The notes under the pieces: model-generated | What the model saw: the letters and a program-made list of their open reading frames with translations, nothing else | Database searches by the model: none | What the model was told of the DNA's origin: nothing | Translations under genes and position numbers: made by a program | Origin: Turnera subulata | Lineage: Eukaryota; Streptophyta; Magnoliopsida; Malpighiales; Passifloraceae | NCBI GenBank assembly: GCA_028386065.3 | Contig: JAKUCV010003306.1 | Location: forward strand, 63,640 to 127,639 | Direction: 5' to 3' | Length of the DNA: 64,000 bases | Part shown: positions 35,860-58,035 of the stretch, one piece after another | Position numbering within the stretch: the stretch's first letter is position 1 | Layout of the letters: every line of letters begins with the position of its first letter

Positions 35860-36508
35860 TGTGACACCCGGGGTCTATAAGGTCGTGAAGTGTACGCCGG
35901 TATGGGACAATAAAATCGAGAATAGATTAAACCGTTTGTTGGATACTAACTATATCAACAAGGTGCACCTACTTTTTCGGTGCTCATTCCAAAAGAACTC
36001 CAAAGTTAAACGTGCTTGACTTGGGGCAATTCTGGGATGGGTGACCTCCAGGGAAGTTTTTCCTGGAAACATACGAGTGAGGACAAAGCATGTTGGAAAG
36101 GTTCTGTGTTGGTCTGTAGTGACAGTCGACAAGCCGGGACGTTACAGTTGGTAGCGGAGCTCCAGGACTCCCCTAGTGCGATGCGGGATTCAGGGACGAA
36201 CTTAGTGGAAATTGGTGGGCCTGTGACACCCGTGGTCTATGAGGTCGGGAAGTGTACGCCAGTATGGGACTATACAATCGAGAATAGCTTAAATGGTTTG
36301 ATGAGTACTAACTATATCAACAAGGTGCACCTACCTTTTTGGTACTCATTCTAGAAGAACTCCAAAGTTAAATGTGCTTGACTTGGGGCAATTCTGGGAT
36401 GGGTGACCTCCTGGGAAGTTTTCCCCGGAAACGTGCGAGTGAGGACAAAGCATGTTGGAAAGGTCCCGTGTTGGCCTGTAGTGACAGTCGACAAGCCAGG
36501 ACGTTACA
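35860..36508 (+). mobile_element. Cassandra TRIM, copy 1 (649 bp)
   Basis: Two 287-bp LTRs (35860-36146, 36222-36508; TGTGACACCC...GACGTTACA) flank only 75 bp holding the primer site TGGTAGCGGAGC (36149). The target duplication ataag is at 35855-35859 and 36509-36513. Each LTR contains the 5S rRNA-like segment that defines Cassandra: an A-box-like aagttaaacgtgc and a C-box-like gggatgggtgacctcc. There is no coding capacity; mobility must use other elements' enzymes. Confidence 0.92.
36002..36057 (+). promoter_or_regulatory. 5S rRNA-like internal Pol III promoter, LTR 1
   Basis: A-box-like aaagttaaacgtgcttg (36002-36018) and C-box-like gggatgggtgacctcc (from 36034), separated as in plant 5S rRNA genes. 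In LTR 2 the same boxes lie at 36364-36380 and 36396-36419; there the C box equals the usual plant 5S text. Confidence 0.8.
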
Positions 36509-36513
36509 ATAAG

Positions 36514-38170
36514 GGCTTGAAACTTGATATGAGCAAGGTGTTGAATGGAGGTTCTTAGAGGCAGTTTTGATTAAAATGGATTTTCCTATGCCGTGGATCC
36601 AGATGATTATGCGTTGTATTACAATGGTCAGTTACTTTCTCTTGATCAATAGGGTACCACAACAGCCTATCTCCCCTGGTCGAGGGCTTCGACAAGTGAT
36701 CCTTTGTCCCTTTATCTATTTCTTTTTTATGCTGAGGGTTTATCGCACTTATTATTAGGAAAGTTTAGAGGGGTCATATACATAGTGTTCAAGTATGTCT
36801 GACTGCCTCCCAGGTTTCGCATTTGTTTTGCTGATGATAGTATCTTGTTTGCTCGAGCTACAAGGAGAGAAGCTAGCTCAATTTCTACTTTGCTTCATAG
36901 TTATGCAGCTGCATCTGAGTAGAAGATTAACCTTGATAAGTCATAAGTATTTTTTAGCCGTAATGTTCCCGATGCGTTACATTCTACATTGCAAGGGATT
37001 TGAGTGTCAAGGCAGTGGATACTTTAGACAAATATCTGGATTTACCAGCACTAATCGGTCGGTACAAGAAATCAATTTTTTCAGTTGTGTGTGATCGTGT
37101 GGCAAAGAAAATATGGCAGTAGAAGGAGAAATTTTTTACGGATGCAGGCAGGGAGATTTTTATTAAATCCATTGTGCAATCCATCCCTAATTATCTTATG
37201 AGTTGTTTCAGGCTTCCCGTCTTTATATGTTCTAAACTTGAGAGCTTGATTCGTCAATTCTAGTGGGGTAGTAGGGATGGTCGTAGATGCATCCATTGGC
37301 TTTATTGGGAGTGGCTTTGCAGCTCTAAAGCTGCAGGTGGTATGGTTTTCTGAGTGTTTGAGGGTACCAATTTGGCCTTTTTTGCTAAGCAAGGCGTCCG
37401 CTTGCTCTCGGATCAAACTAGCTTGTTAGCCCAAATCCTCAAAGCTAGGTATTATCCACGCCTTCTTTCCTGAATGCTCAGGTTGTCTACCAACCCAGTT
37501 ATACATAGAGAAGTATTATTGGCTCCCGACCTATATTAGAGCAAGGTCTAATTCGTACTATTAGTGATGGTCGTGACATTAACATATGGGGGGATAACTG
37601 GTTACCTAGAGAGGGTCGTATGCAGGTGGAATCGCCTATCTCTATCCTTCCAGGCAATGCTAAGATTAATGATCTTATTGACCATCATTCAGGGGATTGG
37701 AATCGACCCTTGGTAGATCAGGTTTTTTATAAGAAGGAGGCCAATATTATCAAGAGCTCCTTTAGTTCCTGGTGCCCATAGAGATAGTATTGCATGGTTT
37801 CATAGTAGTTCGGGCGAGTATTTAGTCAAGACGGGTTATAAGGTGGCCCTTAGTAGTATTTGTCCTCAAATTAATACACGAGAAGTTGCTACTGATGGGG
37901 TAATGAGATCGAGGTGGCGTGGTCTGTGGCGCTTATCTATCCTGCCCAAAATAAGAACTTTTGCTAGGAAAGTCTGCACTAATATCCTTCTTGTTCGTGC
38001 TAATCTGCTCTCTCGTCATGTTCCTGTTGATAGAATTTGTCCCAGGTGTAATCACACTGTGGAGAATGATATGCATCTCTTTGTTGAGTGTGATTGGGCT
38101 AAGGATATCTGGCAAAATTGGCCATTTCCTCTTGTATTGCCAGTTGTGGGTACTCATATATGTGGGGAAT
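36514..38170 (+). pseudogene. LINE segment 2: RT to zinc-finger domain
   Basis: The ORF2 frame resumes with KGLKLDMSK. The RT active-site motif reads FADDSILFARA (about 36827-36859). A zf-RVT domain follows (RWRGLWRLSILPKIRTF, then CPRCNHTVENDMHLFVECDW, about 38040-38100). Many stops and shifts are present. The sequence is cut at 38170 by the LTR of gypsy A and resumes at 57420. Confidence 0.8.
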
Positions 38171-39004
38171 TGATATATGCAAGCCAGTACCAAGTGGAAC
38201 TCAAGATCGTGATGGCGCCATTAGCTTACCCCGAGGACCAATCACGAGGGCTCGATTGAAGATGATAAAGAATCACATGTTACATTATGCTCAAACTTGG
38301 GTCAATCGGGAGTTGCAAGAAGATAAGTTGGATAAATTCGGAGATGAATTTAAAGAAACTCCTAAGTTTGTGAGCATTTTGAAGGATTCAAGTCACAAGT
38401 AGCCATTTTTACTGTTCAATCCGAAAATTACTATTCATGCCGGAAATTACTATTCACTGCCAGCGTTTACTGTTCATTTTCAGGTTGGAAAATCCACTAA
38501 GGAGCTAGAGATACCCACTATCCATATTGAGTGCTCTTTCATCATTTGGTTTGTTGGTGTGGTTGGTGTTAGTGTGGTTGGTGTGCATTAAAGAAAATAA
38601 AAGCTTTGTATTTTAAATTCCATCCTTTGCTTTTTGGCTTCTATAAAAGCCAACCATGTATCAAGTTTGTAATCAGATTACATACTTGAAATGTGAGTGA
38701 ATTCTAAGGAAGCTAAATGCTTTCCTTTGTTGTTCTTCTTGGTTGAGAGATTCAATTAAAAAAAAAAAAAACAAGAGAGGGATTCTTTTGGCTTTACTCT
38801 TTTGGATTGATTATTCTTATCAAGTGATTTACTTGTGGTGAATAATTAATTCCTTGTATTCCTAATTGTTTGTTGCCTAATCCTTTGAGTTTAGGAGGTG
38901 AAAAATAGGGATACTAAACCTTAGTTTGATTGGAGATTGGAGGCCTTGGGATCAATTAGTTGCAGAGGTAATCCTAGTGGAATTCTAGGGTTGTTGCTGC
39001 ATCA
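38171..39004 (+). repeat. 5' LTR of gypsy A (834 bp)
   Basis: TG...CA ends. It contains a likely TATA text ttctataaaagcc near 38638. It is nearly identical to the 3' LTR; the copies differ by a ~15-bp indel in a gtggttggtg repeat and scattered substitutions. Confidence 0.9.
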
Positions 39005-39006
39005 TT

Positions 39007-39018
39007 TGGTAGCGGAGC
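39007..39018 (+). other. primer binding site of gypsy A
   Basis: TGGTAGCGGAGC lies two bases after the 5' LTR. Confidence 0.6.
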
Positions 39019-39153
39019 TTACAGGTTCAATCAATCATACCTTGTGTTGTTCAATTCTTGCTCTTCCTATTGTTAATCTTGTCGTCCTTCAATTTTTCTT
39101 CTCTTCTTGTTTTAATCTTCCTGTTTTTCAAAAAAGAAAAAAAAAGTATTACA

Positions 39154-39590
39154 ACATCGATGTTTGGAACCAAAACATCGATGTTGGGACAGTAAAATTT
39201 GAATTTTTGAAGCTAACGGTCACCAAAACATCGATGTTCAAACCCTAAAATCGATGTTTTTAAGCTTCTGTCAACAAAAATCTTGGAAACCATTGTAAAA
39301 ACATCGATGTTCAAACCCCTACATCGATGTTCTTGAGCTTCTGCCAAAGAAATCTTGAAACCAATTGTTTAAACATCGATGTTCGAACCCCAACATCGAT
39401 GTTCTTGAGCTACTGCCAAAGGAAAACCTGAAACCAATTGTTTAAACATCGATGTTTAAACCCCAACATCGATGTTCTTGAGTTTCTGCCAAAATTATCT
39501 TGTGAAAACATCGATGTTTTGAAGCCCAACATCGATGTTGTAGATATTCTGTCAAAACATTTTGAAAACGAATTGTAAGAACATCGATGT
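39154..39590. repeat. paired-palindrome array in gypsy A leader
   Basis: Twelve exact copies of the palindrome ACATCGATGT (usually within AACATCGATGTT) and one degenerate copy. Most occur as pairs 20-21 bp apart with a linker such as gagctactgccaaa between pairs. The array sits between primer site and gag, in the untranslated leader. Frames through it give repetitive peptides (TSML, NIDV types) but switch register, so coding is unlikely. Confidence 0.9.
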
Positions 39591-40019
39591 GTTGAGGCTA
39601 CTGTTACTTTCGACATAGTTGGGAATATCTTCTTTCTTTCTGCTTATTTGATCATCTTGTTTTTTCTTTTCAGCTTTTCCAAATTGAGCGATAATTGTCT
39701 CATATCATTCAGTTGCTACAACATTCCATCACATACATCTTGTCCTTGTGTCTGATCTTTCTTCTTGTTTGTTGGAGTCATTTATTTGTTCTAGAATTGT
39801 TGTTCCTTTCATTCTTTCTTTAGGCTTTCATTGTTTTTGTTAATTATTTGTTGCAAGTTGGTTGCTTGATTTTGTGATATCTAATCCTAACTAGTAAAGT
39901 TGAAACAGAATCAAGAGAGGAAAAAGGCTGAGAGTTACATCCCTTGCCAAGAGTGAACCAACACGAGTGTAAACACGTTAGGACTTGTTTTACTAACAAG
40001 TATTTGCAGGTTATACACC

Positions 40020-41296
40020 ATGTCTAATAGTAGCAGTGAGGGTGGTGAACCAAACCTTGCTTCTATTATGGTATTGTTGAGGGATTTTAGGGCTCAGATA
40101 GATGCTCAGATGAAGGAGGTTAGGGATGAAGTCAGGGCGACAAATCTAGGATTGAGGGAGACCAATACCCGAATTGAAAGACAAACAAGAGAGTTGAGTG
40201 ATAGGTTGGAGAGGCAAGAACAAACTGTTCAAGATATCTCTACTAGCATTGCTACTCCAAGAAGAGCAGGAGGAGGAGAGCAGGAACAGACTGCTCGCCC
40301 TAGAGAGCAAGCTACACACCATGTTAATGAAGATCCCATTCTTGAAGAATAATTGGAGGAACAACTTGGAGAGGTTAATCAGAGAGTGCATGCTGGGGGT
40401 AGAGGAGGCCGAGGTCTGTTTGGCAGAGGAGGAGGCGCAGCTGGATATCAGAGACCCAGATTCTTTGATAGAGTAGAAGAAAGAGCAGTGAGGATTGATC
40501 GAGTTGTTGGATCCATCAAAATGAAAATTCTAATTTTTCGAGGTTCTAGTGATCCAGAGGAGTATTTGGAGTGGGTGCAGAGTGTGGAGTCAATTTTTGA
40601 CTGCCATAGGTACTCGGAGGAAAAGAAGGTCAAGCTTGCAGTTGTGGAGTTCAAAGATTATGCCAGATCTTTGTGGAATAAGCTTGTCACTTTAAGGAGG
40701 AGATATAGAGACCTTAAGATAGAAACATGGGAGGAGATGAAGAGGAACATGAAGAAGAGATTTGTTCCTGCTTCATATCAGAGAGAGTTGCTTCCTAAGC
40801 TTCAAGCAACCAAGCAGGGAACTAGGAGTGTAGAAGAGTACTGGAAGGCACTTGAGATGACTATGCATTAGACTGGGATCGAGGAAGATGAGGAGACCAC
40901 CATGTCAAGGTTTTACTATGGGTTGAACAGGGATATTGCTAATATTCTAGAGCTACAACATTATGCAGAAATTGAAGAGATGGTAGCTCTAGCTTCTAAG
41001 ATTGAAAAGCAACTCAAGAGCAAGACCTATGAGAAGCCTTCTAGTTATACCAGTTGGAGTTCCAGTGCAAAATACACCAAGCAAGAAGTGGGGAGCTCAA
41101 GTAAGCCTGTTCTTGACACACCTAAGTCGATTCCTTAGAGACCTAGGGAGGGACAGAAACCGGTTGAACAGAAGACTCCCAATAAACCAACAAAAGCTCA
41201 GCATAAGGCTAGAAATGTGAAGTGTTTCAAGTGCATAGGATTGGGACATTATGCTTCTCAGTGCCCGAATAAGAGGGTGATGCTTACCACTGAGCA
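40020..41296 (+). pseudogene. gypsy A gag, with three in-frame stops
   Basis: Starts MSNSSSEGGEPN and has a coiled-coil-like part (ETNTRIERQTRELSDRLERQ). The capsid-type Retrotrans_gag domain includes DPEEYLEWVQSVESIF and FVPASYQRELLPKL. A CCHC zinc knuckle, CFKCIGLGHYASQC, lies near 41222. Stops at 40350, 40869 and 41136 interrupt the frame. Gag would form the particle shell and bind RNA. Confidence 0.85.
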
Positions 41297-41302
41297 TGGG
41301 AG

Positions 41303-42774
41303 GTGTACTCAGATGATGAGAGGGAGGAGCCCTATGTTAATCCAGCACTAGCTGACATGCCTGAGTTGGAGGATGCAGACGATGAGTTTGTTGAGCCAGA
41401 GGAGGTGGTTCAGAAGTTATGTGTGACCCGGAGGATGCTCAATATCCAGCAGAAGGAAGAGGGAATTGAGCAAAGGGAGGACATCTTTCACACTAGGTGT
41501 TTAGTACAAGACAGGCCCTGCAGCATGATCATAGATGGGGGAAGTTGCACCAATGTCGTGAGTACCATGTTAGTGGAAAAGTTGGGCCTGAAAACTCAGA
41601 AACATCCAAAGCCATACAAGCTTCAATGGCTTAATGATAGTGGCGAGATCAAAGTTACCGGTCAGGTACTTATTTCCTTCACTATTGGGAAGTACTCTGA
41701 TGAGGTTTTATGTGATGTTGTACCAATGTAGGCGTGTCATATCTTGTTGGGAAAGCCATGGCAGTATGACAGAAGGGTACTGCATGATGGTCGTACGAAT
41801 AGGTACACATTCACCGTGGGTGAAAGGAATGTGGTGCTTGCGCCACTATCCCCCATGGATGTCTATGAGGGTCAGTTGTTTATGCACAAGTCTGTGGAGG
41901 CTTGGAGGAAGGAGAAGATGGCTGGTTTAGCCAAACTCAGTGAAGTTAAGGGGAAAGCCGAGGGCTTTACAAAAGGAGAGAAAAAACTTAGTGAGAAAAA
42001 GAGAGAAAATTTCTATGCAAGTTCAAGGGATTTGAGGGTAGCTTGTGAGAACAAACAAGAGATTTTAGTACTCTAATATAAGGGGACTTATTTTAGTACA
42101 GCTGACCTTGACCCAAAATTGCCTAGTTATATTGTTTCTCTTTTGCAGGACTACAGTGATGTCTTTCCGGAGGAACTGCCTAGGGAATTGCCGCCACTTA
42201 GGGGCATTGAGCATCAGATTGACTTTATTCCTGGTGCCCAAATTCCAAACAGGCCAGCATATAGGGCCAATCCAGAGGAGAGAAAGGAGATACAAAAGCA
42301 AGTAGAGGGCTTGCTTTCTAAGGGGTTGATTCGAGAGAGCCTCTCTCCGTGTGCTGTACCAGTAATTCTTGTTCCAAAGAAGGAGGGCACTTGGCGGATG
42401 TGTGTTGACTGTCGAGCTGTCAACAAAATAACGGTAAAGTATCGCCATCCCATTCCTAGGTTAGATGACATGCTTGATGAATTATATGGTGCATGCATTT
42501 TTACTAAGATTAACCTCATGAGTGGATATCATCAGATTCGCATGAAAATAGGGGATGAGTGGAAAACTGCATTTAAGACTAAATTCGGGTTGTATGAATG
42601 GTTAGTTATGCCGTTTGGTTTGACTAATGCACCTAGTACATTTATGCGTCTAATGAATCATGTCTTGCGGTATTTCATTGGAAAATTTGTTGTTGTGTAC
42701 TTTGATGATATTCTTATCTATAGCAGAAGTGTTGAAGAACATTTGGAACATCTTAAGCTTGTATTGGATGCAAA
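41303..42774 (+). pseudogene. gypsy A protease and first part of reverse transcriptase
   Basis: The protease has IIDGGSCTNVVS (about 41527). Stops follow at 41729 and 42074. RT includes [40 protein letters not shown] and the active site YFDDILIYS (about 42698-42724). The frame breaks at 42774, after text for HLKLVLDA, where gypsy B begins; RT resumes near 53680. Confidence 0.88.
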
Positions 42775-43541
42775 TGATACAAACCAAGGAAGAAGTAATG
42801 GAGACAAACATGGAGCTTGGATGTATTCCAACAAGCTCACTTTCTGAATCATATCCAAGATTCGTACTCACAAGAAGTTCAAGAAGAGATGGAAAATCAA
42901 GATTGGAGAGGAGCTAAAACTGAAGCCCATCAATTTGCTGTCAATTAAGGAGTAGTTGACTCAAGAGCACATTCGGGCCCAGTCGACATCAATCCACCTT
43001 CAAGGAGGTGTCGATATATCCATTTTATTTTTATTAATTATAGTTGTCAAATTAAAATCGACTAGTTTTATTTTATTTTATTATTGTAAGTATTTAATTA
43101 GTGTCCAAGTTATGTGGGCTCAATTAAATCCTAGGAGAGGAGGCGCCAAGACTTGGAGTTCAAGGAGGAGCTGACGTACTGTTCACCAACTTTACTGTTC
43201 ACCGACTTTGAGGAGGTGTGTTCTCCTATAAATAGAACCGTTGGGGTTCATTGTTATTCAGATTATTTGAGTAATAAAAAGTTCAGTTAAACTTGAATAA
43301 TCTTGGCCCAAAGAGAGGAGTCTCTTTATTTGTTTTATCCTTTGTGCTTTGTTTCTTTGTTGTCTAGCACCGAGAGTTTAGGAGGTGGAGGGGCTTTCGC
43401 GTCCATCTGTTGTCTAACATGGATTGTTAGGAGGTGAAGAGCGTCGGTGCAAGAACAATGCACAATTGGTTGTGATTTGAGATCGGGACAACTTTAGATA
43501 CGAAGGTGCTTCTAGGACCGGCTAGGCGTGTTATCGTATCA
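42775..43541 (+). repeat. 5' LTR of gypsy B (767 bp)
   Basis: Repeated at 44491-45317. TATA-like cctataaatagaacc near 43225. Confidence 0.85.
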
Positions 43542-43705
43542 ATTTTGGTAGCGGAGCTCAGGTTATCAAATCAATCAACTATCCTTTTATTTTTCTGTTG
43601 ATTATTATTTTGCCGCAATTATTTTTTAAAAAAAAAAGAAGAAGAAGAAATCGATTGATTACATTTATAGCCAAATTGTTTGCAAGAGAGGTTGAAGTTA
43701 TTACA

Positions 43706-44311
43706 ATGGAGTTGTTGCAATGGAGGGCCTTGAGTGATGCGCTGGTTCGAATCAACAACCGGTTGCTCGACGAAGACGAAAAATTTGCAGAGCTCCGGCG
43801 CGAAGCTAGAAACAACATGGAGGAGCTTAAACGCTTAATTGCAGGCGTGACCGAGCAGAGAAGGCAGCGACCGTTGCCACAGCAGCAACAGCAGCCTCCT
43901 CCACGCCAACAGCCCTCACCACCATTAGCGGAGGAACCAGTGCGCCGAGCTGAGCCACAACAGAGGGACGAGACACCCGACCCTTGGGAACAAGCCGATC
44001 ATCAGAGACGTTTGGAAGACGAGATCGAACATGAAGCTCAGGAAGAAGAAGATGCACTAATGGAAGATCGATATGTGCAAGAGGCGCCTGCATCCGACCA
44101 ACTACTTCTAGTGACCAGGCGAGCTCTTAGTGCACAATTGGAAGAAGATGAGACCGAGCAGAGGGAGAACATCTTCCACACCAGATGCCATGTCGATGGA
44201 AAAGCATGCAGTGTGATCTTCGATAGTGGAAATTGTGCGAATGTAGCTAGTGCCTTGATGGTTGAGAAATTGAAATTAGCAGTGTCGAGACATGATGTGT
44301 TTCTTTTGTAG
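43706..44311 (+). pseudogene. gypsy B fused gag/protease remnant
   Basis: A 201-aa open frame from ATG 43706. It has an acidic coiled-coil-like N-terminus (RINNRLLDEDEKFAELRREA) and Gln/Pro-rich middle (LPQQQQQPPPRQQPSPP). After a junction comes protease text, ENIFHTRCHVDGKACSVIFD then SGNCANVAS, with a D-S-G triad like gypsy A's protease region. The capsid domain, zinc knuckle, RT and integrase are missing. The open fusion could still be translated. Confidence 0.6.
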
Positions 44312-44490
44312 GATGATTCTTGTCCTAAAGGATTGCCGCCCCTAGGCGAAGATGGACCTATATGTGGGGCGCCGATTACAATCAAAAAGGAGCATCAGGT
44401 TTTAAGTTCCTTTTCTATGCCTTTAATGTCTAAATTGGAGAACATGATGAGTATCGATTCGAGGACGAATCGCTTTGAGGAGAGAGGGAA

Positions 44491-45317
44491 TGATGCAAAC
44501 CAAGGCAAGACTATCGCACGCCAAGGCGACCAAGGAAGAAGCAATGGAGACAAACATGGAGCTTGGATGTATTCCAACAAGCTCACTTTCCGAATCATAT
44601 CCAAGATTCGTACTCACAAGAAGTTCAAGAAGAGATGGAAAATCAAGATTGGAGAGGAGCTGAAACTGAAGCCCATCAATTTGCTGTCAATTAAGGAGTA
44701 GTTGACTCAAGAGCACATTCGGGCCCAGTCGACATCAATCGACCTTCAAGGAGGTGTCGACATATCCATTTTATTTTTATTAATTATAGTTGTCAAATTA
44801 AAATCGACTAGTTTTATTTTATTTTATTATTGTAAGGATTTAATTAGTGTTCAAGTTATGTGGGCTCAACTAAATCCTAGTCCATCTAGTAATAGGAGAG
44901 GAGGCGCCAAGACTTGGAGTTCAAGGATGAGCTGACGTACTGTTCACCGACATTACTGTTCACCGACTTCACTGTTCACCGACTTTGAGGAGGTGTGTTC
45001 TCCTATAAATAGAACCCTTGGGGTTCATTGTTATTCAGATTATTTGAGTAATAAAAAGTTTAGTTAAACTTGAATAATCTCGGCCCAAAGAGAGGAGTCT
45101 CTTTGTTTGTTTTATCCTTTGTGCTTTGTTTCTTTGTTGTCTAGCACCGAGAGTTTAGGAGGTAGAGGGGCTTTCGAGTCCATCTGTTGTCTAACACGGA
45201 CTGTTAGGAGGTGAAGAGCATCGGCGCAAGAAAAGTGCACGATTGGTTGTGATTTGAGATCGGGACAACTTTAGATACGAAGGTGCTTCTAGGACCGGCT
45301 AGGTGTGTTGTCGTATC
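44491..45317 (+). repeat. 3' LTR of gypsy B, cut by copia C
   Basis: Same start as the 5' LTR. It ends at cgtatc, where copia C inserted; gtatc is duplicated at 53674-53678 and the terminal a follows. Confidence 0.85.
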
Positions 45318-46761
45318 TGTTAGTGTAATATGCCCAAAAGCCAATCATGGATGATTATTTGTAGTCATGTATACACATTAAGGTTATTCCAATAAGTATC
45401 GTTTATGAGATAAACGCTTGCACATACTTATAACCCTAGAATATTTCATATTCTTAAATGTCCCTAGTCGATTATTATTATGGATGGGTTGTAATAATAA
45501 ATTAAGACTAGCGTAATTAGTGGTTCTTATAGATGTATTGTCCTCCGACCTGAGATCGTCAAGGTATCCAACATATGAGTCATGTACTTTGATATTATTC
45601 CTAGTCACCCGTAACTGGGTGGACATAAGGGTAATCATTGGGTATATGATGATTATGTAGTGGGTTTTGATTGATCAAGAGGGGATTCATCCGACCCATA
45701 TAACGGGTATATTATTGGATGGTTTCTTGATAGAGTTGAACTGTTAAATGCATGGCCATGCTCAGATTGGGTGATGTGGTGATATCACAGGTTTTCGTTT
45801 TATACAGTTAACTCGGGGATCAAGAAACATAGATTAAACATATACGAGATTGACATATTCCATGTCTCGTGTTTGATCTAGATAATGGGACGAAGGGACG
45901 ATGACATATTTCGAGGCATAGAGAATCAGTACTGATCTTGTCGTTCGGGTAGCAATGATGTGCTGCTAGACGCCGCTCTTTGCTTATAATTGTAAAAATG
46001 AGATTTTACGATTATTGCCGGACGTTACAAGTGCCTACAGGGTCACACACATAGAACCGTTGATTCGAGCAGGTGGTTGAACCGTGGTTGGACCATGGTT
46101 GGACCGGGTGTGGTTGGACCGTGGTTGGACCATAGTTGAACCAGGTCTTTTTGGGCTGGTTGGTTCACTTATTGTCAGAATAATTGAGCCACAGTAAGTG
46201 CCATGTGATGTGTATTACATTGTTGCTAAGTGGTGGACATTATCATAAGATTCCTAATCTAGTTGGCCAAAGGTGTTGGCCACCTTGTCTTCCACTTTAG
46301 TGAGTTGGAAAGGAAAGGCATAATCTGATTATTCAAGGGTCTTTCCATCAACGTTTGTGTGTCTGAAAATTCAGAGCTTGAGAGGGTCTTGGAGTCCTTG
46401 AGAGTTTCAGAACATACACATCACTCTCTTCATTCTTTGTGAAAGAAAGAAGAACACAAACACCACAAACACAAGCACCCGCTTCTTGTTGCTAGCACAT
46501 TAGTGCGGGTGAGCTCGGGATTGGATTCGTGTGATGATTCTAAGCTGGTCACGGTTCGTGTGGATACCGTAGAGGGGCGAGGCTTTTGTCTGGCTCTAAC
46601 TGATTCGATTCTACAGTTGGGTGAAAGACCTCAACCGAACAAGGTACGTAAAATTGTTATGCAGTTTATGCATGCTTCACTTGGTTCTTGGTTGAGTTTC
46701 CGTGCTTCTGCTGCTTGTTGTGCTTGGTATATGAATGTCATATAGCTTAGGGAAACTTACA
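45318..46761 (+). repeat. 5' LTR of copia C (1444 bp)
   Basis: TG...CA ends. It includes a tandem gtggttggacc tract near 46080-46135. Confidence 0.88.
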
Positions 46762-47063
46762 GTGGTAGCGGGGCCTCTTGTGAAGCTCTAAACCGGATTT
46801 ATGTGCATATGTTGATATGTTCATGTATATATATATGATATGTTATATGTGATGTAGCATGATCATTATATGTTGATTTCAATTGTATATGTGATATATA
46901 TGTTGTTTTTGGATGTGTCAAAAGTGTTTTGACAACATGAACTTGATTGGTATGTGATATCAATCAAGGAGTTCTTGGCAGTAAGTCGAAAGAGTTCGAC
47001 TAGGAAAAATCGAGTGTCGGTTTGTGTATAGAACGATTGTCGTTCTAGTACAGCTAGGCCATA

Positions 47064-48022
47064 ACATCGATGTTGGTGAGACCAACATCGATGTTTGCAT
47101 GAAGTTTAGCCTTGGCAGAACCTTCATAACATCGATGTTGTGTGACAAACATCGATGTTCTGATGAAGTTTAGCCTCGGCCGAATCATCACAACATCGAT
47201 GTTGTGTGACCAACATCGATGTTCTCATGCAAAATTCTCAAAACATCGATGTTTAAGAGTTAAACATCGATGTTATTTGAGCTCGGCCAAATTGGTTTGA
47301 GTTCCAGAGCTCCAACAACATCGATGTGTGAGTGTCAACATCGATGTTCTTGAGTTCCAGAACCCAAACATCGATGTTTAAATGTTAAACATCGATGTTA
47401 TAATGCTACTGCCAAGATATTGAACTTTCAAGTACTTAAAACATCGATGTTTAAGTGTTCAACATCGATGTTCTTGAGCTACTGCCAAATGGTGGAGTTC
47501 AAGTACTCAAAACATCGATGTTTAAGTGTTCAACATCGATGTTCTATGCATTCGAAAACTTCCAACATCGATGTTTGAGTGTCAACATCGATGTTTTGCA
47601 GATTCGCAAACTCCAAACATCGATGTTGAAGGGTTCAACATCGATGTTGTGGAACCCAGTAACTTCAACTGTGAATTCGAGGTAGAAGGAGGCCAAATTG
47701 GTGTCTGGCCTTAACAGGAAAGTTGTAGCCCTACTTCTTAGCTTTCTAGGGACACTAAGTTTGCACAAATCCGAGCTCTACAGCTCTGGATATGGCCGAA
47801 ATACTGAGTACTACAAAAATCTTGAACTTTCAGAATCTCAACAACATCGATGTTTGAAAGTTCAACATCGATGTTATGGAGCTACTGCCAAAATTGTTTG
47901 GAGCTCGAGTTCTCACAACATCGATGTTGTAATGTCCAACATCGATGTTATTGAGCTACTGCCAAAGAGTTGGGACAATTTGATTGTCACAACATCGATT
48001 TTCCAAATGGTAACATCGATGT
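47064..48022. repeat. paired-palindrome array in copia C leader
   Basis: Twenty-five exact ACATCGATGT palindromes and one degenerate copy, mostly in pairs whose members start 20 or 21 bp apart. Linkers often contain gagctactgccaaa. The array is interrupted at about 47650-47840 by unrelated text. It lies between primer site and gag. A stretch of about 30 bp spanning palindrome and linker (47460-47489) is identical to one in gypsy A (39391-39420). Confidence 0.92.
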
Positions 48023-48699
48023 TATCATGTATTTTGTTTTTCCAAACTTACATGACATCAATGTATGATTTATCAAGAACAAGCATTTAATGTGCTGGAA
48101 TTATATGTTGATGAAAAATATTAAGTTCTTAGTTGTCTTCCATGATAAGCACTCATCAAGCTTAAGATCAACAATTGGTAGTTCTCTGCCAAAGCAAGGT
48201 GCTATTGTTTATCCTAAGAAGGTGCGAGTGGATAATTGTAATATCTCGATTGCTTATTGTGGGTGTGGACTTAACTAGGTTATCTTAATAGGATTAAGGA
48301 CCTAGGAGCAAGGGTTGAGAAATGTCTATAAGATAGACTTGGATAAGGTGTTGTTCACTCAACTATCCAAGAGTTGCATAGAGATGTAATTGACAAGAGT
48401 TGTCTACCTAAATAGCTATGGTATAAGTTTATCAGCCAAAGCTGACTTATGTTGTAGTGAAATATGGATCTTGGCCTACTTATATAATTGTCTTGATTTA
48501 TGTAGTAGGAGCACATTTAATAGAAATTCCTTATTAAATGATTTGTATGCATGACTATTATTTGTGTGAGTTGATCATTGTTGTAGAATTACCATGGCAC
48601 AAAACACTAGCACTTATTTATGCGATTGGTCCTTGAGTAGGACAAGCTGAATAGGAATAGTTTCATAGAGTGGCATCACTTTTAAGGATAGTCTTCAAA

Positions 48700-49280
48700 C
48701 AAGAAAAATTTGTATGTCCTTGAAGGGCCTGTTCTTAATGAATTGGCGCCTAATGCTTCTAGGGGCAGAAGTAGATGCTTGTGAGAAGCATGTTGATGAT
48801 GCATTGGATGTTGCATGCCTTATGCTAATTGCCATGGACTCTGAGCTTCAGAAGCAAGATGAGAACATGTGGGCGTTCGATATGATCGAACACCTGAAAA
48901 TGCTCTGAGGAGAGCAAGTAAGGCATGGGAGGTACGAGACCTCTAAGGCATTGTTCCAATGCAAGATGGCTAAGTTATCACCCGTTAGACCTCATGTGCT
49001 CAAGATGATTAGATACATTGAGAGCCTTAGGGGTCTTGGTTTCCTTTGAAAAGGAAAGGGTAAAGCAAAGTTAGAGAAGAAGAAGAAATGTACCAAAAGG
49101 TTTGGTGCATGTGCATCTTCTTATTCTCATGTGCTGAAACCCAAGGGTGGTGTTGCAAAGAAGGAAATTGTTTCCGTTGCAACAAACCAGGCCATTAGAA
49201 ACGCAACTGCCCTGTTTACCTTGAAGAGGTAAAGAAGCAGAAGGGAAGTGAGACTTCCGCTTCAGGTATTTTGTTATAGA
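48700..49280 (+). pseudogene. copia C gag remnant
   Basis: Fragments in shifting frames read ALDVACLMLIAMDSELQKQ, ALFQCKMAKLSPVRPHVLKM and a CCHC knuckle (CFRCNKPGH...KRNC near 49170) in which a TAG stop replaces the residue after His. These are copia gag signatures. Confidence 0.75.
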
Positions 49281-52131
49281 GGCTAATATCTCTACCTCTG
49301 CATCGTGGGTATAAGATACCGGATGTGGTTCTCACATTTGAGGAAATGTGAAGGAACTGAGAAAGAGTGGGAGATTGGCTAAGGATGAGATAGACCTACG
49401 CCTCGGAATTGGAGCAAGAGTTGCTACATTAGCCGTAGGGACTTTCTATCTATCCTTACCGAATGGTTTGGTTTTAGAACTGGACAATTGTTATTATGTG
49501 CCTACCATAAGCAGGAATTTGATTTCTGTGTCTTGTATGGACAAGAAAAGTTTTTCATTGATAATAAAGAACAATTGTTGTTCTATTTATTTCAAAGAAA
49601 TTGATTATGGTGGTGCATTTTTAACGATGGTTTGCATGTTCTAAAACTATAAACGCCTGTCTATAACGTTAATATGAAGAAGGTTAGAATGAATGATTCT
49701 AGTGAAACTTATCTCTGGCATAGTCGTTTGGGCCATATAAACGAGACTCGTATTCCTAAACTCCATAAAGATGGATTTTTAGACTCATTTGATTTTGAAT
49801 CATATGAGACATATGAGTCATGTTTATTAGGCAAAATGACTAAGGCTTCCTTTACGGGTAAAGGTGAAGAGCCTAGGACTTGCTAAGTCTAATACATACT
49901 GATGTATGCGGACCTATGTCTACACAGGCTAGAGGTGGTTTTCAATACTTCATTACATTTACTGATGACTTCAGTAGATACGGCTATGTGTATCTAATGA
50001 GACACAAGTCAGAATCCTTTGAAAAGTTCAAAGAATTCAAGAATGAAGTACAGAATCGACTCGGAAAAGTATTAAGATGCTTCAATAAGATCGAGGTGGT
50101 GAATACTTAGATCGAGATTTTCTTGACTATCTAAAGAGTTATGGTATAGTATCACAACTTACTCCACCGGGTATGCCTCCATGGTATGGAGAATCTGTAA
50201 GGAAGAACAGAACCTTGTTAGACATGGTTCGTTCTATGATGAGTCAAGCTGACCTTCCTTCTTCCTTTTAGGGACATGCATTATTGAGTGCTGCATTTAC
50301 CTTAACCGTGTTCCATCTAATCGGTTGGATAGACACCATATGAGATATGGATTGGGAAGCATCCCAATTTGTCTTTTATGAGGATTTAGGGTTGTGAGGC
50401 TTACGTGAGACGTTAAGCATCAGATAAACTCGACCCTAAATCCGATAAGTGCCTTTTGTATGATACCTTAAAGGGTATTGTTTCTATAATCCCATAGAGC
50501 ACAAAGTGTTTGTGGCTCGGAATGCTATTTTTCTAGAAAGAGTGTCTATTTCTAGAAGAATCAGTGGGAGGAGAATAGAACTCGAAGAAGTTCGAGATAA
50601 AGAGGCTGAGATGGAACAAAGGACAGGATCCGCAAGTTGTTGTGGATGAGAATCCTGTTCCTGTAACACATGGACCGCGTAGGTTGGATAGGATTCGGTA
50701 TGAGCCTGAGAGATATGGATTTCTCGTGACTCATACCGGAGACGTGATGCTCATAGATGAGGATGAGCCCACTTTCTATCAGCTGGCCATTACGGGTCCG
50801 GACTCCAGGAAGTGGCTAGAAGCCATGAATTCGGAAATGGAATCCATGTATCAAAACAAGGTATGGACCTTGGTTGATCCACCCGAAGGGGTAAAACCCA
50901 TAGGGTGCAAATAGGTCTTTGAGAAAGACCGACATGGATGGTAATGTGATTACCTTTAAAGGGCAATTGGTTGTGAAAGGTTTCAAGCAAGTTCATGGTA
51001 TTGGCTATGATGAAACCTTCTCACCAGTCGCCATGGTTAAATCCATCCGGATTCTATTGGCTATAGCGGCATACTATGATTATGAGATATGGCAAATGGA
51101 TGTCAAAACTGCTTTCCTTAACGGAAATTTTGGAGGATGTGTACATGACACAGCCTGAAGGTTTTGTCAATCCAGAGAATGCCAATTTGGTATGCAAGTT
51201 GCAGAGATCCATTTATGGATTGAAGCAAGCTTCTAGGAGTTGGAATCTTCGTTTTAATGATGCAATCAAAGAGTTTGGTTTCATTAAAAGTGAAGATGTT
51301 TCATGTGTTTACTAGAAGGTTAGTGGGAGCACTATTGTTTTCTTGTTGTTGTAGGTCGACGACATCCTACTTATTGAGAATGATATTCCGACACTAAAGT
51401 CTGTAAAGACTTGGTTAGGAAAGGATTTCTCAATGAAAGACTTAGGAGAGGCTGCCTAAGTGTTAAGCATAAAGATCTATAGAGAAAGATCCAAAAGGCT
51501 TCTCGGGCTAAGTCGGAGTACATATGTTGACAGGGTGCTAAAGGCGTTTAGCATGCAAGATTCCTAGAAGGTTTTCTTGCCCATGTCACAAGGCATATCT
51601 CTCTCAAAGAGTCAATGTCCTAGTACGATTAGAGAGAGAGAGCGGATGAGTAAGATCCCTTGTGCTTCGGCAATAGGATCTATCATTTATGCCATATTAT
51701 GTACTCGACCGAATGTCGCTAATGCTCTGAGCGTCACAAGCAGATGCCAATCTGATCCCGGTGAAAGTCACTGGATAGCGGTTAAGAAAATCCTTAAGTA
51801 CTTGAGAAGCACTAAGGATACATTCCTGGTTTACGGAAGCGTTGATGGGCTTGTTGTAAAGTGTTACAAAGATGCCTGCTTCCAAACTGACAGGGATGAT
51901 TTTATATCGCAATCAGTTTACATGTTTTGTCTTGGATGTGGCGGTGTTTGCTGGAAGAGTTACAGGCAAGAAACAGTTGCCAACCCTACAACTGTGGCTG
52001 TACAAAGTTCCATTTGAGAACTTTGTATCAGATCTTTTGACTAAGCCTCTCACGCAGCGGAAGCATGATGGTCATGCTAAATCCACATATATGAGATATA
52101 TGGATGATTGGCTTTAGTGCAAGTGGGAGAT
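49281..52131 (+). pseudogene. copia C pol remnant: protease, integrase, RT, RNase H
   Basis: The protease text DTGCGSH is near 49317. GAG-pre-integrase has YLWHSRLGHINETRIPKL (near 49710) and the integrase core has LIHTDVCGPMSTQARGG and FITFTDDFSRYGYVYLM (49880-50010). RT includes WLEAMNSEMESMYQNKVWTL and VKTAFLNGN, with MTQPEGFVNPENANLVCKLQ following. The RT YVDD site is spoiled by TAG in place of Tyr (near 51352), and RNase H follows (LGCGGVCWKSYRQ). More than six stops are present, so it is not functional. Confidence 0.85.
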
Positions 52132-53673
52132 TGTTACTGTAATATGCCCAAAAGCCAATCATGGAAGATTATTTGTAGTCATGTATACACATTAAGGTTA
52201 TTCCAATAAGTATCATTTATGAGATAAACGCTTGCACATACTTATAACCCAAGAATATTTCATATTCTTAAATGTCCCTAGTCGATTATTATTATGGATG
52301 GGTTGTAATAATAAATTAAGACTAGCGTATGTTGAGAATTTATATGTGATATGAATTCTACATACGGGTACAAGTTAGAGAACTTGTAGACTGGACCGAC
52401 CCACACAAGAACCCTACATGGAACGTTATACGTATTTCATTAGTGGTTCTTATAGATGTATTGTCCTCCGACCTGAGATCGTCAAGGTATCCAACATATG
52501 AGTCATGTACTTTGATATTATTCCTAGTCACCCGTAACTGGGTGGACATAAGGGTAATCATTGGGTATATGATGATTATGTAGTGGGTTTTGATTGATCA
52601 ACAGGGGATTCGTCCGACCCATATAACGGGTATATTATCAGATGGTTTCTTGATAGAGTTGAACTGTTAAATGCATGGCCATGCTCGGATTGGGTGATAT
52701 GGTGATATCACGGGTTTCCGTTTTATACAGTTAACTCGGGGATCAAGAAACATAGATTAAACATATACGAGATTGACATATTCCATGTCTCGTGTTTGAT
52801 CTAGATAATGGGACGAAGGGACGATGACATATTTCGAGGCATAGAGAATCAGTACTGATCTTGTCGTTCGGGTAGCAATGATGTGTTGCTAGACGCCGCT
52901 CTTTGCTTATAATTGTAAAAATGAGATTTTACGATTATTGCCGGACGTTACAAGTGCCTACAGGGTCACACACATAGAACCATTGATTCGAGCAGGTGGT
53001 TGAATTGTGGTTGGACCATGGTTGGACCGGGTGTGGTTAGACCGTGGTTGGACCAGGTCGTTTTGGGCTGGTTGGTTCGCTTATTGTCAGAATAATTGAG
53101 CCACACTAAGTGCCATGTGATGTGTATTACATTGTTGCTAAGTGGTGGACATTATCATAAGATTCCTAATCTAGTTGGCCAAAGGTGTTGACCACCTTGT
53201 CTTCCACTTTAGTGAGTTGGAAAGGAAAGGCATAATCTGATTGTGCAAGGGTCTTTCCATCAACGTTTGTGTGCCTGAAAATTCAGAGCTTGAGAGGGTC
53301 TTGGAGTCCTTGAGAGTTTCAGAACATACACATCACTCTCTTCATTCTTTGTGAAAGAAAGAAGAACACAAACACCACAAACACAAGCACCCGCTTCTTG
53401 TTGCTAGCACATCAGTTCGGGTGAGCTTGGGATTGGATTCGTGTGACGATTCCAAGCTGGTCACAGTTCGTGTGGATACCGTAGAGGGGCGAGGCTTTTG
53501 TCTGGCTCTAACTGATTCGATTCTACAGTTGGGTGAAAGACCTCAACCGAACATGGTACGTAAAATTGTTATACGGTTTATGCATGCTTCACTTGGTTCT
53601 TGGTTGAGTTTCCGTGCTTCCGCTGCTTGTTGTGCTTGGTATATGAATGTTATATAGCTTAGGGAAACTTACA
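52132..53673 (+). repeat. 3' LTR of copia C (1542 bp)
   Basis: Matches the 5' LTR except for a ~100-bp block present only here and scattered substitutions. Confidence 0.88.
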
Positions 53674-53679
53674 GTATCA

Positions 53680-54952
53680 ACTTAGGGCTGAGAAATTATT
53701 TGCCAAGCTTAAGAAGTGTACTTTTTGCATGGATAGTGTTATCTTTCTTGGATATGTGGTTAGTTCCAGAGGAATAGAAGTCGACCAGGAAAAGGTGAGG
53801 GCTATCAGAGAATGGTCGATTCCTACTTCTATCTCTGAGGTGAGATCTTTTCATGGCCTTGCTAGTTTTTATAGGAGCTTTGTAAAAGATTTCAGTGCCA
53901 TTGCTGCTCCTTTGAATGATATTGTCAAGAAGGAAGTAGGATTTAAATGGGGAGATGCACAACAAAAGGCATTCTCGACTTTAAAAGATAGATTGTGCTC
54001 TGCTCCCATTCTTAAGGTGCCTAACTTTGATTCTACTTTTGAGGTTGAGTGTGATGCTTCTGGTATAGGCATAGGTGCTGTTCTTTTGCAGGAAAAAAGG
54101 CCAATTGACTATTTCAGTGAGAAGTTGAAGGGTGCTCAACTCAACTATTCCACTTATGACAAGGAGCTGTATGCATTAGTGCGAGCGTTACAGACATGGC
54201 AACACTATCTTTGGCCAAAGGAATTCGTGATTCACACTGATCATGAAAGTTTGAAGCACCTAAAAGGCCAAGGTAAGCTGGGGAAAAGGCATGCAAAGTG
54301 GCTGGAGTTCATTGAGACTTTTCCCTATGTTGTCAAGTACAAACAAGGTAAGGATAATGTAGTTGCTGATGCATTATCCAGGAGGTATGCTCTACTCTTT
54401 TCTCTTAGTTCTAAGTTGTTGGGACTTGAGTATATCAAGGAGTTGTATTCGTCTGATTCTGACTTTGCTAATGTATATGATGCATGTGAGCAATCTGGAT
54501 TTCAAAAGTTTTATAGAGATAATGGATATTTATTTCGTGAGGGAAAACTTTGCATTCCATCTTGTTCTATGCGTGAGCTGTTGACTAGGGAGTCACATGA
54601 TGGTGGTTTGATGGGTCACTTTGGTGTTGCTAAAACTCTTGACATTCTGCAGGAACATTTTTATTGGCCTAACATGAAAAAGAATGTTGAGCAGGTTTGT
54701 AGTAGCTATGTGGCATGTCGACATGCCAAATATAGAATGCAACCTCATGGGTTGTATACACCTTTGCCTGTTCCTACTCATCCTTGGACTGATCTTTTTA
54801 TGGATTTTGTGGTAGGATTGCCTAGGACTAGAAAAGGTAGAGATAGCATCTTTGTTGTGGTTGACAGGTTTAGTAAGATGGCTCATTTTATTGCTTGTCA
54901 TAAGATTGATGATGCATCTCATGTTTCTGAATTGTTCTTTAGGGATGTAGTC
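53680..54952 (+). pseudogene. gypsy A: end of RT, RNase H, integrase N-terminal part
   Basis: The frame continues the RT begun before gypsy B ([16 protein letters not shown], then [17 protein letters not shown]). RNase H has [18 protein letters not shown] and [12 protein letters not shown]. The integrase zinc region ([25 protein letters not shown]) and the first catalytic Asp ([16 protein letters not shown]) follow. The frame is open until a Cassandra enters after GAT GTA GTC. Confidence 0.9.
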
Positions 54953-55884
54953 TGTAACGTCCCGGCTTGTCGACTGTCACTACAGACCAACACGGGACCT
55001 TTCCAACATGCTTTGTCCTCACTCGCATATTTCTAGGGAAAACTTCCCAGGAGGTCACCCATCTTAGAATTGCTCCAAGTCAAGCACGTTTAACTTTGGA
55101 GTTTTTCTAGAATGAGTACCGAAAAGGTAGGTGCACCTTGTCAGTCTCAGGATCTCTCCTATTCCGGTGTGGATTTGGTTCATTCGTGTGCCCTTCCGTC
55201 TAGAAGCCTGCCAGAAGCCGCTCCTTGTCCATGCTCATCCAGGCACCGGCGTACACTCCCCGCCCTCATAGACCCCGGGTGTCACAGGCCCACCAGCTTC
55301 CGCTAGGTTCGTCCCCGAACCCTGCACCGTACTAGGGGAGTCCTGGAGCTCCTCTACCAACTGTAACGTCCCGGCTTGTCGACTGTCACTACAGACCAAC
55401 ACGGGACCTTTCCAACATGCTTGACCAACACGGGACCTTTCCAACATGCTTTGTCCTCACTCGCATGTTTCTAGGGGAAACTTCCCAGGAGGTCACCCAT
55501 CTTAGAATTGCTCCAAGTCAAGCACGTTTAACTTTAAAGTTTTTCTAGAATGAGCACCGAAAAGGTAGGTGCACCTTGTTGATATAGCTAGTACCCATCA
55601 AACCGTTTAAGTTATTCTCAAGTGTACAGTCCCAAACCTGTACAACCTCGAAATCACTTCATTTGAGCTATTCTTAATTATACAGTCCCATACCCGTATA
55701 ATTACGAAATCGCCGCAACTGTGCAGCCCCATCCTTACACAGTCTCAGGATCTCTCCTATTCCGGTGTGGATTTGGTTCATTCGTGTGCCCCTCCGTCTA
55801 GAAGCCTGCCAGAAGCCGCTCCTTGTCCATGCTCATCCCGGCATCGGCGTACACTCCCCGCCCTTATAGACCCCGGGTGTAACA
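54953..55884 (-). mobile_element. Cassandra TRIM, copy 2 (932 bp)
   Basis: The LTRs are 54953-55286 (334 bp) and 55362-55884 (523 bp), with a 75-bp interior. The target duplication tagtc is at 54948-54952 and 55885-55889. Minus orientation. The longer LTR carries about 150 bp missing from the other, plus a ~29-bp tandem duplication near 55400-55445 (gaccaacacgggacctttcc). 5S-like boxes are at 55042-55063 and 55081-55097, and at 55480-55501 and 55519-55535. The primer site is altered to TGGTAGAGGAGC. Confidence 0.9.
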
Positions 55885-55889
55885 TAGTC

Positions 55890-56604
55890 CGTTTGCGTGG
55901 CATTCCTAGGACAATTGTTTCTGATAGAGATACTAAGTTCTTGAGTCACTTTTGGCGTGTGTTGTGGAATAAATTAGGGACCAAGTTGTTGTTTTCTACT
56001 GCTTGTCATCCTCAGACTGATGGCCTAACTGAAGTGGTCAATAGGACTTTAGGGTCTTTATTGCGTGCTGTTGTGGGTAAGAACTTGAAAACTTGGGAAG
56101 ATTGTTTGCCATTGATAGAGTTTGCCTATAATAGGAGCATTCATTCTTCTATAGGATATTCTCCATTTGAGATTGTGTATGGTTTTAATCCACTAACCTC
56201 CTTGGATTTGTTGCCTTTACCTTTGAATGAGCTTGTCAATGTAGATGGGCAGCAAAAAGCAAAGTTGGTTCAATCCATACATGAGAAGGCTCCCAAGCAC
56301 ATCGAAGAGAAGAATGCTAAAGTGCCACAAAGGGCCAACAAAGGGCGCAAGCTGGTTAGGTTTGAACCTGGTGATTGGGTTTCGGTACACTTTAGGAAGG
56401 AGAGGTTTCCTCAGCAAAGGAAATCTAAGTTGGATGCAAGGGGAGATGGTCCTTTTCAAGTCCACGAGCGCATCAATAACAATGCCTACAAAATAGATCT
56501 GCCTGGTGAGTATGCAGTGAGTGCTACTTTTAATGTTTCTGATCTTTCTCCCTTTGATAATGCAGGGATAGATTCGAGGACGAATCCTTTTGAGGAGGGG
56601 GGAA
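55890..56604 (+). pseudogene. gypsy A integrase C-terminal part
   Basis: The frame resumes as [20 protein letters not shown] with the second catalytic Asp, then the Glu region [40 protein letters not shown] and the C-terminal [20 protein letters not shown]. It ends in [13 protein letters not shown] and [11 protein letters not shown] just before the LTR. No chromodomain is present. No stop is seen in this part, so integrase decay is mainly due to the Cassandra insertion. Confidence 0.9.
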
Positions 56605-57419
56605 TGATATATGCAAGCCAGTACCAAGTGGAACTCAAGATCGTGATGGCGCCATTAGCTTACCCCAAGGACCAATCACGAGGGCTCGATTGAACATGAT
56701 AAAGAATCACATGTTACATTATGCTCAAACTTGGGTCAATCGGGAGAAGCAAGAAGATAAGTTAGATAAATTCGGAGATGAATTTAAAGAAACTCCTAAG
56801 TTTGTGAGCATTTTGGAGGATTCAAGTCACAAGTAGCCATTTTTACCGTTCAACCTGAAAATTACTATTCACGCCGGAAATTACTATTCACTGCCGGCAT
56901 TTACTGTTCATTTTCAGGTTGGAAAATCCACTAAGGAGCTAGAGATACCCACTATCCATATTGAGTGCTCTTTCATCATTTGGTTTATTGGTGTGGTTGG
57001 TGTGCATTAAAGAAAACAAAAGCTTTGTATTTTAAATTCCATCCTTTGCTTTTTGGCTTCTATAAAAGCCAACCATGTATCAAATTTGTAATCAGATTAC
57101 ATACATGAAATGTGAGTGAATTCTAAGGAAGCTAAATGCTTTCCTTTGTTGTTCTTCTTGGCTGAGCGATTCGATAAAAAAAAAAACAAGAGAGGGATTC
57201 TCTTGGCGTTACTCTTTAGGATTGATTATTCTTATCTAGTGATTTACTTGTGGTGAATAATTAATTCCTTGTATTCCTAATTGTTTGTTGCCTAATCCTT
57301 TGAGTTTAGGAGGTGAAGAATAGGGATACTAAACCCTAGTTTGATTGGAGATTGGAGGTCTTGGGATCAATTAGTTGCAGAGGTAATCCTAGTGGAATTC
57401 TAGGGTTGTTGCTGCATCA
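56605..57419 (+). repeat. 3' LTR of gypsy A (815 bp)
   Basis: Same start and end as the 5' LTR, followed by target duplication ggaat. Confidence 0.9.
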
Positions 57420-58035
57420 GGAATGGCTTCATCATATAGCCACAACACCTGATTAGGGTGTTCTGGAGCGTATACTGATGCTGTTATGCAGCACGTGGAA
57501 AGACAAAAACATGTTAATCTTTCAATCTCGCAGTTCTCCCATTACGACCATCATTCAACATGCTATATCTCTTCTTACTCAATATCAACAATCACATGTG
57601 GTTTCGGCCTCAAGCAACAGCCCTGCTCGTCCTTCTCATTGGTCACCTCCCCCTGCTAGTTTTGTCAAAATCAATACTGATGTGTCTAGCTTATCAGATG
57701 GATCGAGTTTTGGCATTGTTATTCGGGATGTTCAGGGATCTGTTCTTGCTGCACAGGCTTCTCTGATTCACTCTCGTTACTCTAGCCGGGATGATGAAGC
57801 TATGTGTATCCGTTTAGGCTTACAAATGGCTCGCTCTATGCACTTGGATAGGATTATCTTGGAGTTTGATTGCCTAGAAGTCATTACAGCTATCAAAGCA
57901 CGACGTCTTGTCCTTCACAATTTGGCCAGATCATTTTGGATATTCTTCATTTATCATCTTTCTTTTCAGACTATTTTTCATGTTATATTCCTGGATTATA
58001 TAATAAGATTGACGATGTTATCAGTCGGTGGCCAT
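57420..58035 (+). pseudogene. LINE segment 3: RNase H domain
   Basis: The LINE frame resumes after gypsy A. RNase H (RVT_3 type) reads SFVKINTDVSSLSDGSSFG (near 57658), IVIRDVQGSVLAAQASLI, DEAMCIRLGLQMARSMHLDR and ILEFDCLEVITAI, so the acidic catalytic positions are present. It is cut at 58035 by an hAT element and continues at 59313. Confidence 0.85.

Follow-up and report, generated by a model that had tools for sequence, protein, structure and literature searches.

Palindrome pairs at whole helical-turn spacing recur in copia and gypsy elements of Turnera subulata

Introduction

Why should the leader of a decayed plant retrotransposon be filled with copies of one short palindrome, set in pairs at a nearly constant distance? 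The question is raised by a 64,000-nt stretch of Turnera subulata DNA (hereafter the window), in which the exact word ACATCGATGT occurs 37 times against 0.07 expected from shuffled sequence. The initial annotation attributed the repeats to a single copia leader and proposed that they could act in RNA, as stems or dimerisation contacts, or in DNA, as sites for a dimeric protein. Here, we describe the arrays of the window and of other loci in the same genome, and we weigh these and further explanations against the spacing, conservation and position of the palindromes.

Results

The copia element that bears the array lies on the plus strand. Its 5' LTR (45318..46761, ends set by eye) and 3' LTR (52132..53673, plus strand) were recovered by self-alignment, differ by 35 mismatches in 1435 columns (2.4%) and are bordered by the target-site duplication GTATC (45313..45317 on the left, 53674-53678 on the right). 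About 109 bp of the 3' LTR (52330-52438) are without a counterpart in the 5' LTR. Directly 3' of the 5' LTR stands a primer-site-like TGGTAGCGGGGCC (46763..46775, plus strand). No significant Pfam match to gag was obtained in the window pieces scanned; a probable gag remnant (49050..49229, plus strand) resembles the stretch that precedes a zinc-knuckle-like end in the related locus L025. The remaining coding pieces (49653..52014, plus strand) consist of 49653-51312, in which gag_pre-integrs and RVT_2 score above the Pfam cut-offs and rve below its cut-off, and of 51568-52014, which served as the RNase H query. The coding region is split into short frames, and the element is decayed.

Pairs were called with the 12-mer AACATCGATGTT, allowing at most one mismatch. 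By this measure the array (47063..48023) holds 26 palindromes in 13 pairs; an exact-word count within 47064-48022 returned 25 copies of ACATCGATGT, the number first reported. All 13 complete pairs start 20 bp (n = 4) or 21 bp (n = 9) apart, with 8-9 letters separating the two 12-mers, and the array is located 3' of TGGTAGCGGGGCC and 5' of the probable gag remnant, as had been described. An extra copy decayed at its CpG, ACATCAATGT, follows the array at 48055..48064. A second shared word, GAGCTACTGCCAAA, lies downstream of a pair at 47476..47489 (plus strand) and is found again at 47879 and 47953, with a three-mismatch variant at 47403. A protein-coding repeat was considered and rejected for the window, as the 20- and 21-bp spacings are mixed and palindromes occur in each of the three frames.

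The view that the array is confined to one copia leader proved too narrow. A second array, absent from the initial annotation, occupies the leader of the enclosing Ty3/gypsy element (39153..39591), and still other elements carry one (see below). This gypsy array comprises 12 exact copies of ACATCGATGT (spanning 39154-39590) plus one copy with a single mismatch; they form six pairs, again with starts 20 or 21 bp apart, and leave one copy unpaired. It also contains GAGCTACTGCCAAA (39407..39420, plus strand), with variants at 39335 and 39480; in both window arrays this word sits three to four bases past palindrome pairs.

The enclosing element was assigned to Ty3/gypsy because Retrotrans_gag and RVT_1 are matched in the first part of its coding region (gag and reverse transcriptase, 40353..42782, plus strand, by Pfam). 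It has LTRs at 38171..39004 and 56605..57419 (both plus strand, ends set by eye), a target duplication GGAAT (38166-38170 and 57420-57424) and a primer-site-like TGGTAGCGGAGC (39007..39018, plus strand). Its pol is interrupted by a third LTR element (42783..45317, plus strand), near the end of whose second LTR the copia element is inserted, and resumes at 53690..55033 (plus strand) with RNase H and an integrase zinc domain. LTR mismatches amount to 3.2% in the gypsy element and 3.4% in the middle element, beside the 2.4% of the copia element. Nesting was rejected as the route by which the array came to be shared, as the copia element is in the gypsy pol and not in the gypsy leader. Throughout the nest (38164-57424), each of the three LTR elements has a primer-site-like sequence of the form TGGTAGCGG(A/G)GC. 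Short duplicated or inverted blocks of ~145-290 bp, 87-97% alike, were also seen at 54952-55884, in the gypsy integrase region, and at 35860-36508, ~19 kb upstream. The protein hits listed (at least 120) reach no more than 75% identity and by themselves point no further than to a flowering plant.

To place the two arrays in their genome, pairs were counted in the 518.7-Mb T. subulata assembly, with the reversed word as control and D as the start-to-start distance; repeat counts are lower bounds. At least 37,721 pairs were found at D = 20-21 (control 24), at least 49,188 at D = 14-44 (control 28), at least 1,085 at D = 22-29 (control 1) and at least 371 at D = 46-49 (control 0). Per bp of distance this corresponds to roughly 18,900 pairs for 20-21, 136 for 22-29 and 93 for 46-49. 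Among 50 places listed for D = 22-29, 45 had D = 22, three had D = 23, and D = 25 and D = 29 were represented once each. No exact copy was present in thirteen arbitrary stretches (115 kb); the pairs are therefore clustered.

The array carriers in this plant belong to no fewer than three copia families; a single gypsy carrier was identified, the element of the window. The copia family of the window also bears the array at C12 (L025) and at L044. In copia element D, whose reverse transcriptase piece is 49-51% identical to that of the window, the array is inside the LTR near its end; E, in which no coding sequence was found, has an LTR pair related to that of D and bears the array in the LTR, 5' of the primer site. 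Copia element F (reverse transcriptase piece, 54%) has its array upstream of a primer-site-like match. Array G, which is not near a promoter, lies on C15, flanked by a copia RNase H and a 3' LTR copy; either that copia element or another one may be its carrier. At L047 a primer-site-like match precedes the array, and overall such a match is no more than ~1.3 kb away from the array in A, A2, B, D, E, F and L047.

We then asked how neighbouring palindromes are spaced in 22 arrays (the three window clusters and 19 elsewhere), again accepting copies with at most one mismatch. Six of the nine later loci, L044-L049, had been picked from the D = 22-29 pair list for holding a D = 22 pair. The 208 neighbour distances fall almost entirely (203/208) into four classes, 20-22 (n = 111), 30-32 (n = 9), 42-45 (n = 21) and 50-55 bp (n = 62), with 18, 19, 25, 58 and 74 bp as the five exceptions; no distance of 34-40 or 46-49 bp occurs among the 208. 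These classes correspond to about 2, 3, 4 and 5 helical turns, for which a B-DNA period of 10.5 bp gives expected distances of 21, 31.5, 42 and 52.5 bp. Phase agreement, taken as the real part over 30 group-by-class means, was 0.75 for periods of both 10.5 and 10.75 bp, and 0.42 and 0.46 for 10.25 and 11 bp, respectively; the period is resolved only to ~10.4-10.9 bp. The 10.5-bp value was reached in 0 of 20,000 random draws with fully independent classes and in 0.4% of draws with three shared linker classes. On the window alone the helical-phase test is weak (0.03-0.13).

The array groups are not independent, because their linkers share words, and D and E are also related. Linker 8-mers common to at least three of the seven groups numbered 36, compared with 5.1 in shuffles (maximum 12); 7-mers common to two groups showed no excess (408 vs 455.9). 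The spacing classes may thus be partly inherited from one ancestral unit. The identical 20-21 bp spacing is found in a copia (RVT_2) and a gypsy (RVT_1) element, which belong to different Pfam families. It had been suggested that the two members of a pair could present themselves on one helix face; the spacing in the sequence supports this beyond the earlier claim, because the distances between pairs are also near multiples of 10.5 bp.

An RNA element, in which the palindromes would serve as hairpins or kissing contacts of the genomic RNA for dimerisation, packaging or translation control, was the other function first proposed. Retroviral dimer-initiation signals usually consist of one self-complementary loop palindrome in the leader RNA; here there are dozens, and in F they lie upstream of a TATA-like match. 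The copia array folds at -257.9 kcal/mol compared with a mean of -147.2 kcal/mol for 20 shuffles (z -15.6), and all 19 window pairs fold as hairpins, four of them with unbroken 15-bp stems. Such strong folding is expected, however, because any repeated palindrome folds. As to the filler between the palindromes, in the copia array it favours pairing (18/500 shuffles as good; 30/300 with 10-nt flanks), whereas in the gypsy array it does not exceed shuffles (351/500; 175/300 with flanks), and over 84 fillers inner pairing is weak (117/2000). An outer stem that includes the T..A edge letters stands far above shuffles (0/2000 as good), but these letters are part of the 12-bp palindrome, and no covariation was detected between them (69/84 complementary vs a permuted mean of 69.4; 1543/2000). 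Moreover, an RNA element gives no obvious reason for linkers near 31, 43 and 53 bp.

Position relative to the promoter bears on the same question. TATA-like sequences were scanned as pattern matches in 15 segments. The array is downstream of such a match in B (~500 bp), D, D2 and E (~200 bp), which fits a location in the 5' part of the genomic RNA; A fits too, by its primer site, its lone plus-strand TATA-like match lying beyond that site. No usable TATA-like match was found in A, A2, L041, L042, L045, L047 and L048. In F (plus strand), the sole firm case, the array is upstream of the match, and L046 (plus) and L043 and L049 (minus) show the same order by pattern alone, a placement that would argue against a role in the transcript. 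Taken with the weak filler pairing and the lack of covariation beside the palindromes, these data leave RNA stems or dimerisation unsupported as a common leader function, and we regard an RNA element as an unlikely explanation of the arrays. Pairing in RNA may nonetheless play a part in some elements, including in the copia leader. A known RNA family was rejected: every Rfam match was below the gathering score of its family, and nearly all were to models of plant microRNA precursors, a result to be expected of hairpins.

The family comparison proposed in the initial annotation, namely whether related copies keep palindromes and spacing while the filler diverges, was carried out. Two further copies of the copia family, C12 and L044, retain the array and its spacing, so that the refuting outcome named in that annotation, relatives without the array or with freely varying pair spacing, did not arise. 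Between the window and C12, whose integrase piece is 89.6% identical to that of the window, mismatches amount to 3/196 in palindromes and 132/706 in the rest of the aligned leader (Fisher, 4e-12); the corresponding values are 3/74 and 68/448 for the window and L044, and 5/100 and 73/483 for C12 and L044. Among the three copies, divergence is thus 1.5-5.0% in palindromes and 15.1-18.7% elsewhere in the leader, a three- to twelvefold contrast. It is biased somewhat towards the palindromes, as a position was scored as palindromic if no more than one mismatch was present in one or more of the sequences. Together with the arrays of other elements, these family copies support the initial suggestion of selection on spacing with variable filler.

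The same figures bear on a neutral origin, in which a tandem repeat would have been captured once, multiplied by slippage or template switching and passed between elements as a functionless satellite. The arrays are indeed partly tandem, with several unit lengths (50-74 bp among others), and linker words are common to groups. Recombination between elements is common. In an ordinary satellite, however, the unit is conserved along its length, and drift would neither hold the palindromes at their low divergence against that of the surrounding leader nor keep three discrete linker classes across groups. In the sampled loci, 13 of 15 damaged copies stand 20-21 bp from an exact one, and the damage therefore looks recent. 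We consider a neutral satellite decidedly improbable.

Very improbable, in our judgement, is a silencing or small-RNA hotspot, in which transcribed palindromes would feed small RNA production and the spacing would be a by-product. Palindromes of maize Sireviruses are described as small-RNA hotspots in the available text of PMC5311732 and PMC10760457, but such a role predicts neither a helical register nor any conservation by the element. A unit of 73-74 bp cannot be divided evenly by 21, and a 21-nt small-RNA phase was rejected on this account. CpG-type damage accounts for 4 of the 15 damaged copies in the sampled loci, beside 128 exact ones. CpG changes in the LTR pairs affect 12/49 sites in the copia and 7/16 in the gypsy element, and scaling these LTR values to one branch predicts 6.1 CpG-decayed palindromes in the window, where one was seen (P 0.015); this is a weak hint that CpG loss within the window palindromes is, if anything, low.

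Discussion

We lean towards the explanation that the array constitutes DNA docking sites, shared by different elements, for a putative host DNA-binding protein. A DNA array is favoured over an RNA dimer signal because of the spacing classes, the conserved palindromes, the scant evidence that the fillers were selected to pair in RNA, and the location of the F array 5' of a TATA-like match; linkers of whole turns are expected of a DNA array. The host protein would bind the palindrome ACATCGATGT as a dimer, and the module would consist of two such sites, two helical turns apart. Neighbouring modules 3, 4 or 5 turns away would bring the proteins onto one helix face, where cooperative binding would be possible. 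The array would probably act as an enhancer or a chromatin-opening element, because most arrays are found close to the primer site and the end of the 5' LTR. The carriers may have come by it through exchange with one another, through convergence, or through both. Literature on ATCGAT together with DAP-seq, covered as titles and abstract beginnings, yielded no binding protein on point.

In a broader form, which we put forward tentatively, one host factor that binds a 10-bp palindrome in helical register might have become a regulatory handle common to the copia and gypsy elements of this plant. The elements would pass the array to one another or evolve it anew, and the 519-Mb genome would owe its 37,721 or more site pairs to this process. 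If this is true, retrotransposons of both superfamilies answer to a single regulatory switch within one plant, and cis-modules move between different superfamilies or arise in them. The grammar of the array (site, pair spacing and turn-quantised linkers) would be legible from sequence, and a clear test would be available for a host protein that switches on or marks these elements. Tens of thousands of natural variants would also be at hand for studies of helical phasing in plant regulation.

Among known systems, the Sirevirus motifs are closest in kind and the Drosophila leader arrays closest in position, as far as the available text of the sources goes. Ty1/copia Sireviruses carry short palindromes repeated 8-32 times per element and clustered in the LTRs and before env (PMC2829016, available part). 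With 25 and 12 exact copies, both window elements reach the minimum of eight copies per element. In the Tnd-1 motif ACAATCGATTGT (8 copies at 100% identity) the centre is ATCGAT, as in ACATCGATGT, but Tnd-1 is the only similar entry in the table of that source, the Sirevirus motifs otherwise having a CGG-CCG core. They are, moreover, reported there as specific to Sireviruses, whereas here one motif serves copia and gypsy, in leader or LTR, and one of the window carriers is a Ty3/gypsy element (RVT_1, Retrotrans_gag). No fixed spacing is named for them in the part of PMC2829016 available, in contrast to the spacing classes found here.

The leader of Drosophila gypsy contains an insulator of 12 Su(Hw) sites, and the 5' UTR of Drosophila copia a tandem repeat with an enhancer (PMC7168160, available text). 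These are protein-binding sites in a 5' UTR that act on DNA, and their likeness to the present arrays is one of position. Both window elements bear the array between primer site and gag, as do arrays of the Drosophila type, whereas D and E bear it in the LTR, ahead of the primer site. The Drosophila hosts belong to another kingdom, and the binding protein is known for the gypsy insulator according to the same text, whereas here it is putative. In maize, the palindrome CACCGGACNNNGTCCGGTG occurs in Copia and Helitron elements and is linked to small RNAs (PMC10760457, available text); it is likewise one palindrome across transposon superfamilies in one genome, but its sequence and the partner superfamily are different, and no helical register is reported in the text available. 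In the literature covered, from which subscription journals were mostly absent, we found nothing on one palindrome common to copia and gypsy with whole-turn spacing. Searches for ACATCGATGT, and for CATCGATG with retrotransposon, gave nothing relevant in the titles and abstract beginnings of the matches listed.

Some arrays also contain another word. The MSA consensus YCYAACGGYYA (MYB3R, G2/M) is matched six times in the 10.3 kb of array sequence, while the 115 kb of other loci hold one match and the window none; 5 of the 22 arrays hold such an MSA-like word. Control at G2/M by MYB3R is no more than a lead. Two MSA-like words occur in the array of L046 (C165:22901-23500); some 80 bp separate the end of this array from a TATA-like match downstream, which is followed by an ATG.

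Palindrome runs were also encountered outside plants. A viral or bacterial origin of the arrays was rejected, as the matches amount to one IMG/VR contig and five prokaryote loci whose flanks, compared by eye, are unlike the linkers. In the single IMG/VR match (L001, 6504-6537), two copies lie inside a phage open reading frame and are unrelated. Four loci of the uncultured bacterium Kiruna_bin-04925 (L003, L004, L005 and L006) have runs of 11, 11, 13 and 12 copies of ACATCGATGT, respectively, at an exact 21-bp pitch, with open frames over the run on both strands in L004 and on one in L005. In a Tannerella sp. bin (L002, 4699-4813), five exact copies of the palindrome follow each other at 21- or 42-bp steps, with an NIDV-like reading recognised by eye.
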